Below are positions 3,082-55,034 of a stretch of 64,000 bases of DNA, one piece after another. This DNA comes from Thermoanaerobaculia bacterium (GTDB lineage Bacteria > Acidobacteriota > Thermoanaerobaculia > Gp7-AA8): NCBI GenBank assembly GCA_017883205.1, contig JADGNZ010000008.1, forward strand, positions 62,001 through 126,000, given 5' to 3'. How positions within the stretch are numbered: the first letter of the stretch is position 1; each line of letters starts with the position of its first letter. A program made the translations under genes and the position numbers. Below the pieces are notes generated by a model that worked only from the letters and a program-made list of their open reading frames with translations, searched no databases and was not told the origin of the DNA.

Positions 3082-3822
3082 TCATCGAGGCGCGGCCGCG
3101 GTCACGTCGAGCGCAAACCCCGCCTGCGCAGCGTCGTTGAAGAACATCTTGACCGTGTCGAGCGAATAGTCAGCAAGGTCGCGTCCGATGAGATCGAGCT
3201 TCTTGAGGATGTCATTCGTCGCCGTGATGATGTGGCAGCCAATCTCGTCGGCCTGGAAGACGTTCAGAAGCTCGCGGGGGCTGGCCCAGATCAGTTCCGC
3301 GCCCGGAACATCGGCGAGCATCCGCACCGACTCCGCCATGATCGGCATCGGATCGCGTCCGGTATCGGCGATGCGGCCCGCGAACACGGAGACGTTGCTC
3401 GGCGCCCCGCCGCGAAGTGCGTCGGCAATGGCGCGAACCTGATCGAGCGTCATCATCGCCGTCACGTTCACCTTCACGCCATCGTGCGAAAGCGAACGTA
3501 CGAGCTTGTATGCAGGCTCCCGACGCGTGTTGGTGATCGGAATCTTGACGTAGACGTTCGCGCCCCACGTGGCGATCTCGCGCGCCTGCCGCTCCATCTC
3601 GTCGAACTCGTCGGAAAAGACTTCGAACGAAATCGGCCGGTCGGGAATCGCCGCCAGAATCTCATGCGCGAAATTGCGGTAGTCGGTGATGCCGGCTTTG
3701 CGCATCAGCGTCGGATTCGTCGTGAACCCTTTCACGAATGGCTTCCGGTACATCTCGAGCATGCCGGCTTTGTCCGCGCCATCGGCGAACAATTTAACCT
3801 TCAGATCCTGGAGCGTCTTCAT
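3082..3822 (-). CDS. Transaldolase family protein (fructose-6-phosphate aldolase-like)
   Basis: A 246-residue protein with the small-transaldolase pattern: KLFADGAD at the N-terminus, GFTTNPTLMRKAG, the Schiff-base lysine in NVYVKIPITN, then KVNVTAMMT and SVFAGRIADTG. The start at 3822 has a good ribosome site (GGAGG, about 6 bases upstream) and overlaps gmhB by four bases (ATGA). The longer open frame upstream is out of phase with real coding. Transaldolases interconvert C3, C4, C6 and C7 sugar phosphates. Next to gmhB, gmhA and hddA it plausibly supplies sedoheptulose 7-phosphate, the first substrate of heptose synthesis. That role is inferred from position. Confidence 0.85.
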   Translation of the reverse strand: MKTLQDLKVKLFADGADKAGMLEMYRKPFVKGFTTNPTLMRKAGITDYRNFAHEILAAIPDRPISFEVFSDEFDEMERQAREIATWGANVYVKIPITNTRREPAYKLVRSLSHDGVKVNVTAMMTLDQVRAIADALRGGAPSNVSVFAGRIADTGRDPMPIMAESVRMLADVPGAELIWASPRELLNVFQADEIGCHIITATNDILKKLDLIGRDLADYSLDTVKMFFNDAAQAGFALDVTAAAPR

Positions 3823-13645: not shown

Positions 13646-14584
13646 TCACCGCGGTAATCGCGATAGACCAACTGCCAGCAGGGTGATCGCTACCAATAGG
13701 GTTGCCACATCGTTGAACAGAGGGATTGCTGGCACGCTCGTTAGCCCATATTGCATCTCGGCTAGTGCGCCGGTCACATGTGAAAATGCACCTCCGGTCA
13801 CGTTGACCGTAAACAACTCGCCACCATTCGAGACAAAAAAGTATCGCCTGCCCACGGGATCAAAGGCCGCTGCGGGACTAGCGTACCCGGCCAGACCCGT
13901 GTCAGCGATGAGAGCCGGAATTCCGGTAGCCGGGCTCATCGCATAGATGCCGACGTTTCCAGTGCCGGGTACAAAGCGGATCCCATAAAGATTGGCAGTC
14001 AGCGGATCGTACTGAGGTTCGGCCATCGAACCGGTCACGTGCGTGACTCCACCGCTGGCCACGTTGACCGTAAACAACTCGCCACCATTCGAGACAAAAA
14101 AGTATCGTCTGCCCACTGGATCAAAGGCCGCCGCGGGACTAGCGTACCCCGTCACACCCGTGTCAGCGATGAGAACCGGAATTCCGGTAGCCGGGCTCAT
14201 CGCATAGATGCCGACGTTTCCAGAGCCGGGTACAAAGCGCATCCCATAAAGATTGGCAGTCAGAGGATCGTACTGAAGTTCGGCCATCGAACCGGTCACG
14301 TGCGTGACTCCACCGCTGGCCACGTTGACCGTAAACAACTCGCCGCTATTCGAGACAAAAAAGTATCGCCTGCCCACGGGATCAAAGGCCGCCGCAGGAC
14401 TAGCGTACCCCGTCAGACCCGTGTCAGTGATGAGCGTCGCGACGCCAGTCGCAGGATCGATGGAGTAGATGCCGACGTTTCCTGACGCAGGCACAAAACG
14501 GAGGCCGTAAATAGTCTGCGCCACAACTGGTATCGGAAGAGCTATTGCGATAACGATAGCCACTCGGAGACACAGAATTCTCAT
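13646..14584 (-). CDS. Secreted protein of three near-identical 87-residue repeats with a C-terminal membrane anchor
   Basis: A 312-residue protein. A signal peptide ends PVVAQ; then come three tandem repeats of 87 residues containing GNVGIYAM, GYASPAAAFDPVGRRYFFVSN and GELFTVNV. The DNA repeats have an exact 261-bp period (13819, 14080, 14341) with few substitutions, so they are recent or being homogenised. The pattern suggests beta-propeller-like blades of a WD/NHL kind. The end, IPLFNDVATLLVAI plus LSRLPR, is a short motif, hydrophobic helix and basic tail, like IPTL/PEP-CTERM sorting signals. The start at 14584 has a GGAG site; MLDK at 14620 is an alternative. No exosortase gene is in the window. 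Confidence 0.72.
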   Translation of the reverse strand: MRILCLRVAIVIAIALPIPVVAQTIYGLRFVPASGNVGIYSIDPATGVATLITDTGLTGYASPAAAFDPVGRRYFFVSNSGELFTVNVASGGVTHVTGSMAELQYDPLTANLYGMRFVPGSGNVGIYAMSPATGIPVLIADTGVTGYASPAAAFDPVGRRYFFVSNGGELFTVNVASGGVTHVTGSMAEPQYDPLTANLYGIRFVPGTGNVGIYAMSPATGIPALIADTGLAGYASPAAAFDPVGRRYFFVSNGGELFTVNVTGGAFSHVTGALAEMQYGLTSVPAIPLFNDVATLLVAITLLAVGLSRLPR

Positions 14585-50837: not shown

Positions 50838-50985
50838 AGCACTCGGGCGAGGACGCCCGAGTGCCCGCGGTCGAGACGACCGCACTCCTTACGACGTGCA
50901 GTGGTGAGGAGTGTGGGCGTCTCGCCAGGCGTCTCGCCCGCGGCCATCGGGGCGTCCCGCCTCGGTGGTTGGATCCGGCCTGATA
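50838..50985. repeat. Cluster of short dispersed palindromes (GTCTCG/GAGGAC type)
   Basis: CACTCGGGCG-AGGA-CGCCCGAGTG at 50840-50863 and GCGGTCG-AGA-CGACCGC at 50867-50883 are perfect hairpins; a further set around GGGCGTCTCGCC and GGGGCGTCCCGCC follows to about 50985. The cores AGGAC, GAGAC, GTCTC and GTCCC recur in the elements at 53580-53660 and 62190-62240. They look like a family of REP-like or miniature elements. Confidence 0.7.
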
Positions 50986-51050
50986 GCTCTAACGGATTGA
51001 ACCAGAAACCTGATCGAGTCACACGAAGGAGCGGCTGCTATCCTGGCTTC

Positions 51051-51963: not shown

Positions 51964-52953
51964 ATGCCAACGCCCTTCTCCGTTCTTGATCTCGCGTTTG
52001 TTCCTGCCGGCTCTGCGCCGTCCGATGCGTTGCGGAACACGCTCGATCTTGCGCGGCATGCGGAGCGGTGGGGTTTCCGGCGGTTCTGGCTCGCGGAGCA
52101 TCACAACATGATCGGGATCGCCAGCGCGGCGACGGCGGTGGTCATCGGCTATGTCGCGGCGGGCACGCGCACGATCCGCGTCGGGGCGGGCGGGATCATG
52201 TTGCCGAATCACGCGCCGTTGGTGATCGCGGAGCAGTTCGGGACGCTCGAGTCGCTTTACCCGAACCGCATCGACCTCGGGCTGGGGCGCGCTCCGGGAA
52301 CCGATCAGCGCACGTTGCGTGCGTTGCGCGTCTCACCTCTGAGCTCCGACACCTTCCCGCAGGATGTGATCGAGCTTCAGTCGTACTTTGCACCGCTTCG
52401 CGAGGGACAGCTCATTCAAGCGGTGCCGGGAACCGGTCTCAACGTCCCGCTGTGGATTCTGGGATCGAGCCTTTTCGGCGCACAGCTCGCGGCCGAGCTC
52501 GGGCTCCCCTACGCCTTCGCTTCGCACTTCATGCCGGGAGCGCTGATGGAGGCGATGGCGATCTATCGCGCGCGATTCAAGCCGTCGAGCCAACTCGATC
52601 GTCCCTACGCCATGGCCGGCGTCAATGTCTTCGCAGCCGATACCGACGCGGAGGGGCGCCGCCTCTTTACGTCTGCGCAACAGTCGTTCGCGAATATCTT
52701 TCGCGGAACGCGTGGACGTCTGCCGCCGCCAATCGACGACATCGAGACGTACTGGACGCCCGAGGAAAAGACGCAGGCCTCCGCGATGCTGGCCTGCTCG
52801 TTCGCCGGTTCCCGCGATACCGTTCGCCGAGGACTGGCCGGTTTCATCGAGCGGACGGGTGTCGATGAGGTCATCGTGGCGTCGGCGATTTACGATCACG
52901 CCGCGCGGCTTCGCTCGTACGAGATCGTGGCGGAGATCGCAAGTGTGCTGTAG
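51964..52953 (+). CDS. Luciferase-like (LLM class) flavin-dependent oxidoreductase
   Basis: A 329-residue protein with the LLM pattern: [36 protein letters not shown] (family His pair), [37 protein letters not shown] and [19 protein letters not shown]. It is of the MsnO8-like single-component subgroup, which oxidises substrates with reduced flavin. The 60-base gap from the DUF3883 gene shows no terminator. The physiological substrate is unknown. Confidence 0.88.
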
Positions 52954-53138
52954 CCGGGGGAAACGCATGAACCACCTGTACCCGCAACCCAAGTGATCTG
53001 AGCAACCTGGTGAGAATGTTGACGGTTCAATGTTGCGGGGACACGCCGAAGTGTAACGCTGCCAGCAACATGCGCGCGCACGTGTGCACCCAGCACACTA
53101 CGCTGCGACACGGGGGTGCGCACAGCTGGTCTCGCGCC

Positions 53139-53500
53139 GTGTACCCCACAGTCCCGCACCGTGTACCCCACGGTCCCACACCGTGTACCCCACGGTCACA
53201 CACCATGTACCCCACGGTTACACACCGTGTACCCCACGGTCCCACACCGTGTACCCCACGGTTACACACCGTGTACCCCACGGTCCCACACCGTGTACCC
53301 CACGGTCACACACCGTGTACCCCACGGTCCCACACCGTGTACCCCATGGTCACACACCGTGTAACCCATGGTCACACACCGTGTACCCCACGGTCCCACA
53401 CCGTGTACCCCATGGTCCCACACCGCGTACCCCACGGTCCCACACCGTGTACCCCACGGTCCCGCGCCGTGTACCCGAGGGTCAAACCCCTGTACCCGAC
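53139..53500. repeat. Tandem array of a 22-bp unit, about 16 copies, each able to form a hairpin
   Basis: Units start every 22 bases from 53139 (53161, 53183, 53205 and so on to about 53469), reading close to GTGTACCCCACGGTCCCACACC. Each junction contains ACCGTG-TACCC-CACGGT, a 6-bp inverted repeat, so the array is a string of potential stems. Copies differ at a few bases (for example GGTCAC or GGTTAC for GGTCCC), and the last copies decay. There are no unique spacers, so it is not CRISPR. It resembles a minisatellite or an iteron-like binding array. Confidence 0.9.
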
Positions 53501-53579
53501 GTTCCCGCCTGCCGCAGCGCGCGCGTGGCAGCATCCACTCTCCAGACACGCGCTTGCGCCGGCGGCGGGACGCCACCGA

Positions 53580-53660
53580 GCCAGCCGGCGAGGACGCCAG
53601 CGTTCCATCCGCCTGTGGCGTACTTTGAGCCGGCGGAACGCTGGCGTCCCGCCGGCTGGC
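53580..53660. repeat. 26-bp inverted repeat (dispersed palindromic element)
   Basis: The arm at 53580-53606 (starting GCCAGCCGGCGAGGACGCC) and the arm at 53635-53660 are reverse complements apart from one inserted base, with a 28-base loop. Flanks repeat shorter hairpins of the same style (GGCGGCGTCTCGCCGCC near 53672). The AGGAC/GTCCC core links it to the elements at 50838-50985 and 62190-62240. Confidence 0.8.
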
Positions 53661-54035
53661 CAGGCGGCGTCTCGCCGCCTACCGTGCGTCGAAGCGCGGC
53701 TTCGGCGACTCACGACGACAGCACTTCTTACCCGGCCAGAATTTCCGGAACCGGCAGGTGCCCACTGGGACACAGTGCGTACCCTACTGGGACACGGTCG
53801 GTGTCCCAAAGGGGTACGGGGGACTCCTGCAACGGTGTCAACGGCCATCCAACTTTCCCCCGGTTGGCCAGCTAATGATCCCGCCTGTTCAACATGGAAC
53901 AGTCAACATTCCGTGCTCCAGATCCAGCCGAAGTACCAGAATCGCCGTGAGGCGCGAAGATTTCAAACGTAGTAAAACAGAGCGGAAGCGGCGACTCCGT
54001 CCTCTTTCGCCGCCACAAAGAAAGCAAGACCACGC

Positions 54036-55034
54036 ATGCTAAGCAGACAGCCGCGGCGGCGTTCCTCCACTGCTATGCGGCGTGCCGCGGAAGGAGAGAG
54101 CGTCCGCACGATCGTGATCGCGCTGCTCGCCAACCTCGTCATCGGGGCTGCGAAGTTGATGGCCGGTCTCGCTTCGCACTCGACGGGCATGCTGGCCGAG
54201 GCGGCACATTCCGCGGCGGATTCGGTGAACGAGATCTTTCTGGCCATCGGCCTGCGCCGCGAAAAGGACCCTCCCGACGAAATACATCCCCTCGGCCATG
54301 GACGCGAGCGTTTTCTCTGGGCCTTCATGGCCGCGATCGCATCGTTTCTGATCGGCGGCTGTCTCTCCATCGTCCTCGCAATCCGCGAGCTCGAGACGCG
54401 TCATCCGGTCGGCGCGACGATGGCGGCCTGGATCGTTCTGGCGATTTCGTTTGCGGCCGACGGCGCATCGTGGCTGCAAAGCATGCGGCAGGCACGGCGC
54501 CAGGCTCACGAATACGGCCTCACGGTATGGCGCTACCTCGTCCGCGCTAGCGACCCGGTCGTCCGCGCCATCGTTGTCGAAGACAGCGCGGCGCTGGCCG
54601 GCCTCGCGATCGCTGCGGGTGGCCTTCTCGCGAGCAGAATCGCCGGGACGAACGTGCCCGATTCCATCGCATCGCTGCTGATCGGACTCCTGCTCGCCGT
54701 TACCGCATTCGGCGTGGCCCGGCCATTGGCCGATTTTCTGATCGGGCGATCCCTGCCGCCGGAGCAGGTCGACGCCGTTCATGCACTCGTCAGCCGGAAT
54801 CCGGCGGTCGAAGAAGTGCTGACGCTCCGCGCCGTCTACACAGGCCCGGAGGAGGTCGTCGTCTTCGCGAAAGTACATCCATCGCCGCACCTGAATATCG
54901 ACGAGCTTTCGCGAGCCATGGACGACCTCGATCACGCGATCCGATCCAGGTTCCCACTCATCGCCGACGTCTTCATCGACGTGACGAACACGCGCGGCGG
55001 CGGTGCCACGCACAAAGCTGAGATCACGTCATGA
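54036..55034 (+). CDS. Cation diffusion facilitator (CDF) transporter, SLC30A9-like
   Basis: A 332-residue protein. After a basic N-terminus come six helices: VRTIVIALLANLVIGAAKL, STGMLAEAAHSAADSVNEIF (HxxxD metal site), IHPLGHGRERFLWAF, and a second acidic site in IVVEDSAALAGLAI (ED in place of HxxxD), then a cytoplasmic ferredoxin-like domain. The EDSAAL form and the ARPLADFLIGRSLPPEQVD segment match the SLC30A9-like subgroup of CDF proteins. It would export a divalent metal such as Zn or Mn in exchange for protons. Confidence 0.85.
   Translation: MLSRQPRRRSSTAMRRAAEGESVRTIVIALLANLVIGAAKLMAGLASHSTGMLAEAAHSAADSVNEIFLAIGLRREKDPPDEIHPLGHGRERFLWAFMAAIASFLIGGCLSIVLAIRELETRHPVGATMAAWIVLAISFAADGASWLQSMRQARRQAHEYGLTVWRYLVRASDPVVRAIVVEDSAALAGLAIAAGGLLASRIAGTNVPDSIASLLIGLLLAVTAFGVARPLADFLIGRSLPPEQVDAVHALVSRNPAVEEVLTLRAVYTGPEEVVVFAKVHPSPHLNIDELSRAMDDLDHAIRSRFPLIADVFIDVTNTRGGGATHKAEITS

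Follow-up and report, generated by a model that had tools for sequence, protein, structure and literature searches.

The iterons of plasmid origins, such as the 22-bp iterons of R6K, are tandem direct repeats of about two helical turns that lie next to a promoter and a gene. In plasmid partition systems, the centromere-like arrays parC and tubC are short direct repeats placed upstream of a small-protein operon. Arrays that precede genes are, as a rule, recognised by the sequence of their repeats. Here, we analysed a 64,000-nucleotide stretch of a Thermoanaerobaculia contig (hereafter, the window) in the context of its own genome, that of a soil bacterium (G000; 6.37 Mb in 105 contigs), and of two close relatives in the genus (G001 and G002). 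We found that the tandem array in the window belongs to a class of 21–22-bp arrays of this genus that is defined by period and position, not by sequence. The whole evidence base consists of draft assemblies of these three genomes from one genus, in which copy numbers are uncertain.

The arrays share features with the known systems while differing from each of them. Iterons are the closest functional analogy, since the arrays described here are also tandem direct repeats with a period of about two helical turns beside a promoter and a gene. However, there are about 20 chromosomal copies, and the units vary from locus to locus instead of following one conserved unit, so that proteins 93% identical to each other can be headed by unrelated units. 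Nor is a Rep gene found next to them; the adjacent gene, ORF1, was represented in our searches by the 189-aa protein on contig C49, which has no significant match in Pfam, NCBIfam, PHROGs, PADLOC or the PDB. Like parC and tubC, the arrays are short direct repeats upstream of small-protein ORFs, but no ParM, TubZ or ParA partner was found and the second ORF belongs to another small protein family. Bacterial VNTR minisatellites are likewise contiguous short tandem repeats of variable copy number, whereas ordinary VNTRs lack the tie to a single gene family, one position and a fixed period. REP/BIME elements are intergenic repeats and hot spots for particular insertion sequences as well (PMC1525189), but REPs are dispersed palindromes of conserved sequence.

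The main array of the window (53137–53506, minus strand) consists of 16.9 copies of the 22-bp unit CCGTGTACCCCACGGTCCCACA, as written on the plus strand; the strand given is the inferred direction of a lost promoter and gene, and the exact copy number is uncertain in a draft assembly. Tandem Repeats Finder reported a period of 22 with 89% matches, 0% indels and a score of 558, and the self-identity of 0.87 at lag 22 and 0.88 at lag 44 contrasts with background values of 0.31 and 0.27 at lags 21 and 23. The exact 22-bp period described in an earlier, sequence-only reading is therefore borne out. The same holds for its statement that the array has no spacers and no coding logic: the units are contiguous, unlike CRISPR repeats, which are split by unique spacers, and the long ORFs over the array just read the repeat, with no credible gene inside. 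The inverted repeat ACCGTG/CACGGT, which had been ascribed to each unit, is present in most of them; 86 of the 102 pair cells are unaltered and 6 hold G-U pairs, pairing is lost in 8, and 2 show compensation, so there is hardly any compensatory change. That the unit belongs to no described family holds in the libraries tried, with no credible Rfam match over the region: the search returned just unrelated miRNA-family matches to the hairpin repeat, all below gathering scores.

The array does not stand without relatives. Searching for the unit elsewhere, we found sister arrays in the same genome and in the sister genome G002. An array on contig C49 of G000 is 91% identical to the window array over 337 bp and heads the 189-aa gene mentioned above. 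On contigs C11, C73, C19 and C2 of G000, there are arrays whose units differ but are related (GTGTCCCAGTGGGACAC plus 5 bp, and variants), and 21-bp arrays lie on C83, C21, C49b and C44. Because arrays of this kind recur at many sites, also in genomes that were assembled separately, the window array is not a lone accident of assembly, an artefact that the earlier reading had kept in view. In a scan of GTDB representatives, the GTGTCCC-type unit was found only in the Thermoanaerobaculia bacterium isolate Chersky.31_28 and in a Proteobacteria-labelled MAG of that site, on a single contig with a flank that matches G002. The Proteobacteria-labelled contig JADGRC010000307.1 (Chersky_194; locus L086) carries a locus 85–94% identical to the Thermoanaerobaculia genome G002 and is probably misbinned. 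In G002, a repeat starting GGGCCAGACCTTCGTTTTTC was observed beside several arrays (L068, 2459–2478 and 3336–3355; L067; L082), and in L068 it flanks the array on both sides. At locus L069, a separate 21-bp array (1700–1919; CCCGGAGTCTGTGAATACACT) adjoins a 22-bp array.

The ORF1 family comprises ORFs of 160–200 aa at 19 places in G000, 4 in G001 and 20 in G002. No member was found in ten other relatives (13 genomes searched in all) or in the plasmids, phages and viral contigs searched. We scanned 1300 bp upstream and downstream of each member, whose start codon was assigned by script, and counted the members with at least 1000 bp upstream (n = 30). An array with a period of 21–22 bp or a multiple of it was present upstream of 27 of these 30, while the 1300 bp downstream held an array in none; as a control, 2 of 49 tiles of the window contained an array, both being the window finding itself. 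The three array-less members include a truncated copy of L179 and L184 (G002:C120), whose 21-bp array is joined in frame to the ORF1 gene and yields a 330-aa repeat-bearing ORF. Within 350 bp, 12 of 42 members have a contig end upstream and 1 of 42 has one downstream, a bias that long arrays and repeated leaders would produce by interrupting the assembly.

Intact loci follow a canonical order, in which the array is followed by a σ70-like promoter, a conserved structured leader of ~270 nt, ORF1 and, often, a second small ORF. The predicted promoters (TTGACA/T-17-TAnnnT) lie 3–133 bp beyond the array (17 loci, Fisher p 9e-11) and point away from it. The leader has 45 predicted pairs, 6 of them with compensatory change, and nothing in Rfam matched it. 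The second small ORF, found after ORF1 in many loci, is of three types and encodes another small protein of unknown family. At four loci (L154, L155, L174 and L163), the array comes to within 50 bp of the start codon and an A-type leader is absent, indicating that the array-promoter-leader order is not universal.

All gene-heading arrays have a period of 21–22 bp or multiples of it, while their units are mostly mutually unrelated and share no common motif, which is unusual for binding sites. One such pair is L185 and L186, whose proteins are 93% identical and whose units are unrelated. L186 (G002:C194, ~3120–3590) lacks the 5′ part of its ORF, with the unrelated 21-bp array ending ~56 bp before the remaining ORF, and may be a damaged copy. 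Two candidate origins of the units were rejected. Telomerase-like templating, with the unit encoded in the leader or gene, fails because units match their own leader or gene no better than those of other loci. A coding origin (21 bp being 7 codons) fails because the 22- and 43-bp periods break the frame, the in-frame fusion at L184 being the one such case.

In the window, the main array lies between genes for a luciferase-like monooxygenase (51964–52953, plus strand) and a cation-efflux protein (54036–55034, plus strand). The description of this interval as a gene-free kilobase needs qualification, as it holds five other repeat pieces. On the left, an interspersed repeat beginning CGCAACCCAAGTGA (52983–53009, plus strand) also adjoins the C49 array, in the opposite orientation. 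It is followed by the promoter-proximal end, about two units long, of a second array of 43-bp type (53034–53124, minus strand), which resembles the array heading the gene on G000:C3 (BLASTN match of 57 bp at 88% identity, E 1e-13; local score of 81, compared with at most 26 in shuffled sequence). On the right, outside the array, lies a high-copy hairpin repeat of the genus (53560–53679). This repeat, of GGCGTCTCGCCGGCTGG type, has many copies in G000, G001 and G002 and looks REP-like. Further on are the 23-bp motif TGCCGGTTCCGGAAATTCTGGCC (53734–53756, minus strand), probably a mobile-element end, and the relic right end of an IS21-family element (53836–53886, plus strand; 94% identity with the corresponding end of the complete element on C83). 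Related sequence pieces had been noticed 250 bases beyond the main array; they form a second, short and degenerate array (53757–53835) of GTGTCCCA/TGGGACAC-type unit, which matches the arrays at C11, C73 and C19 and sits exactly between these two mobile-element-like ends, touching the outer side of the motif and facing the terminus TGTCAACGGCC of the relic. Elsewhere in the window, an interspersed repeat with at least ten further genome copies (50906–51003) overlaps the start of an ORF called at 50901, and a tandem repeat of 261 bp extends over 2.4 copies with a 95% match (13799–14434).

The window array has the 21–22-bp period and a related unit, but no promoter, leader or ORF1 remnant is found near it, hence our term orphan. 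Several other arrays are also orphans, counted by similarity searches that give a lower bound, and the link between the class and the ORF1 gene is therefore not strict. At C3, the −35 box lies ~10 bp past the array end, and in the window another repeat occupies that place. At the intact loci L152 and L173, too, blocks with different units follow one another. Since 53034–53124 is the end of a gene-heading array type and the window contains no promoter, leader or ORF of this kind, the simplest reading, from this one 90-bp match, is that the window array is a stranded remnant of a composite array whose promoter, leader and gene were deleted. The gene would have pointed left, on the minus strand, and the scar would have been filled by other repeats. 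In an orthologous-site test of the window locus only, the ~0.7–1.5 kb examined ahead of the homologous cation-efflux gene contained no array in G001, G002 or G006. A lack of conserved flanks in relatives, which had been proposed as a sign of neutral slippage DNA, thus applies to the window copy alone and not to the class, given its placement upstream of a single gene family.

What would an intact array do? Our main reading, to which we assign a probability of about 0.5, is that the window carries a decapitated locus of this period- and position-defined class and that the intact array would be a cis-acting nucleoprotein platform controlling the adjacent promoter. It draws on the two-turn spacing, the sole feature common to all arrays, and on their position upstream of a promoter, where a platform would act. 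Units two helical turns apart would offer repeated contacts on one face of the DNA, through which an array-binding or array-bending protein would control the promoter. As the units turn over fully while the period stays, such a partner would have to read spacing or DNA shape, or co-evolve quickly with the unit. Binding sites for a partner protein, one of the roles put forward in the sequence-only reading, would still be the best functional reading of the arrays.

The strongest rival to a platform is that the arrays are neutral minisatellites that travel with duplicated loci. Intergenic DNA prone to hairpins or slippage would expand in this genus, and its upstream placement would be inherited when locus and array are duplicated together. 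Close duplicates do vary in copy number and unit, as in the segmental copies C21 and C49b (~21 and ~9 copies, with flanks ~89% identical), and at a site common to two assemblies (L064 and L086; flanks 85–94% identical) the unit has been replaced. The existence of orphan arrays also agrees with neutral growth, as does the weak correlation between unit and protein similarity over all pairs (Mantel r 0.27, p 0.001), a correlation that stems from recent duplicates, among them L160/L162 and L154/L155. However, near-identical genes should then keep related units, and L185 and L186 do not. Moreover, a constant period of 21–22 bp across unrelated sequences, confined to the upstream side (27/30 against 0/30), is not expected of free slippage. 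We therefore regard neutral growth as an unlikely explanation that nevertheless deserves serious weight.

Mobile-element ends also lie at arrays. Contig C83 of G000 carries a complete IS21-family element of 2445 bp with IstA (a DDE transposase) and IstB (an AAA+ protein), both above cut-off in NCBIfam (NF033546 and NF038214), flanked by a 5-bp target-site duplication (GTTGC). The element lies inside a 21-bp array and its in-silico removal restores the 21-bp register; together with the duplication, this indicates that the array came first. Searched for genome-wide, its ends turned up six times in G000 (four right, two left), each time next to an array, and in neither G001 nor G002. If ~25 arrays are assumed, 0.28% of the genome is that close to one, and five of five end loci would fall at arrays by chance with a probability of ~1e-13. 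The arrays thus serve as landing sites of this element. Such targeting is unexpected for the family, as IS21 is reported to lack clear or strong target specificity in vitro (PMC10122671); other IS elements are known to insert into REPs (PMC1525189). Each of G000 and G002 has just two copies of the TGCCGGTTCCGGAAATTCTGGCC motif, and every copy is near an array. BLASTN matches of this 23-bp motif in plasmids were at chance level and were discarded.

A further candidate reading is that the array is a site of recombination or dispersal: the gene cassette, like other elements, would spread and increase in number when arrays recombine with each other or are targeted for insertion. The multicopy family has array-bearing loci in common, two unrelated element ends dock at arrays, and C21 and C49b are segmental copies. 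Blocks of different units also abut at L152, L173, L062 and L069. On the other hand, no recombinase is linked to the loci, the arrays stand on one side only, and most units differ between loci, leaving little homology for recombination. We consider dispersal a distinctly doubtful role.

A transcribed array acting as repeated RNA hairpins, either as small RNAs or as a sponge, appears very improbable. The window units and the GTGTCCCA-type units do have dyads. However, the predicted promoters sit downstream of the arrays and point away from them, and the dyads, for which the units had been described as hairpin elements, are not general: in gene-heading units they are weak (Fisher p 0.009, median p 0.39) and mostly not significant, being clear only in the related orphan group, and compensation in the window is almost nil. 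A hairpin or structured-RNA repeat as the essential feature of the arrays was rejected on these figures (2/102 cells compensated; median p 0.39). Finally, an origin of the arrays as part of the IS21-family element, whose terminal transposase-binding repeats would have been left behind, would account for every detected end lying at an array but is largely refuted and barely credible, because many G002 arrays exist with no such element there and the complete C83 copy lies within an array rather than around one.

Returning to the platform reading, it can be extended, more tentatively, to a new genetic unit. Such a unit may combine a period-kept, sequence-free array and a novel structured leader RNA with one or two small proteins that are likewise orphans, at ~20 loci per genome in two species; a protein complex would read the two-turn spacing, not the sequence, and the window array would be a remnant. 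The leader RNA and small proteins are orphans that match none of the libraries searched.

These loci keep the place and the repeat length of the array but exchange its sequence completely, even where the genes are nearly identical, and this suggests a new kind of control region. If the arrays do control promoters, the signal would be spacing or shape, and the ~20 paralogous loci per genome offer a ready natural experiment.
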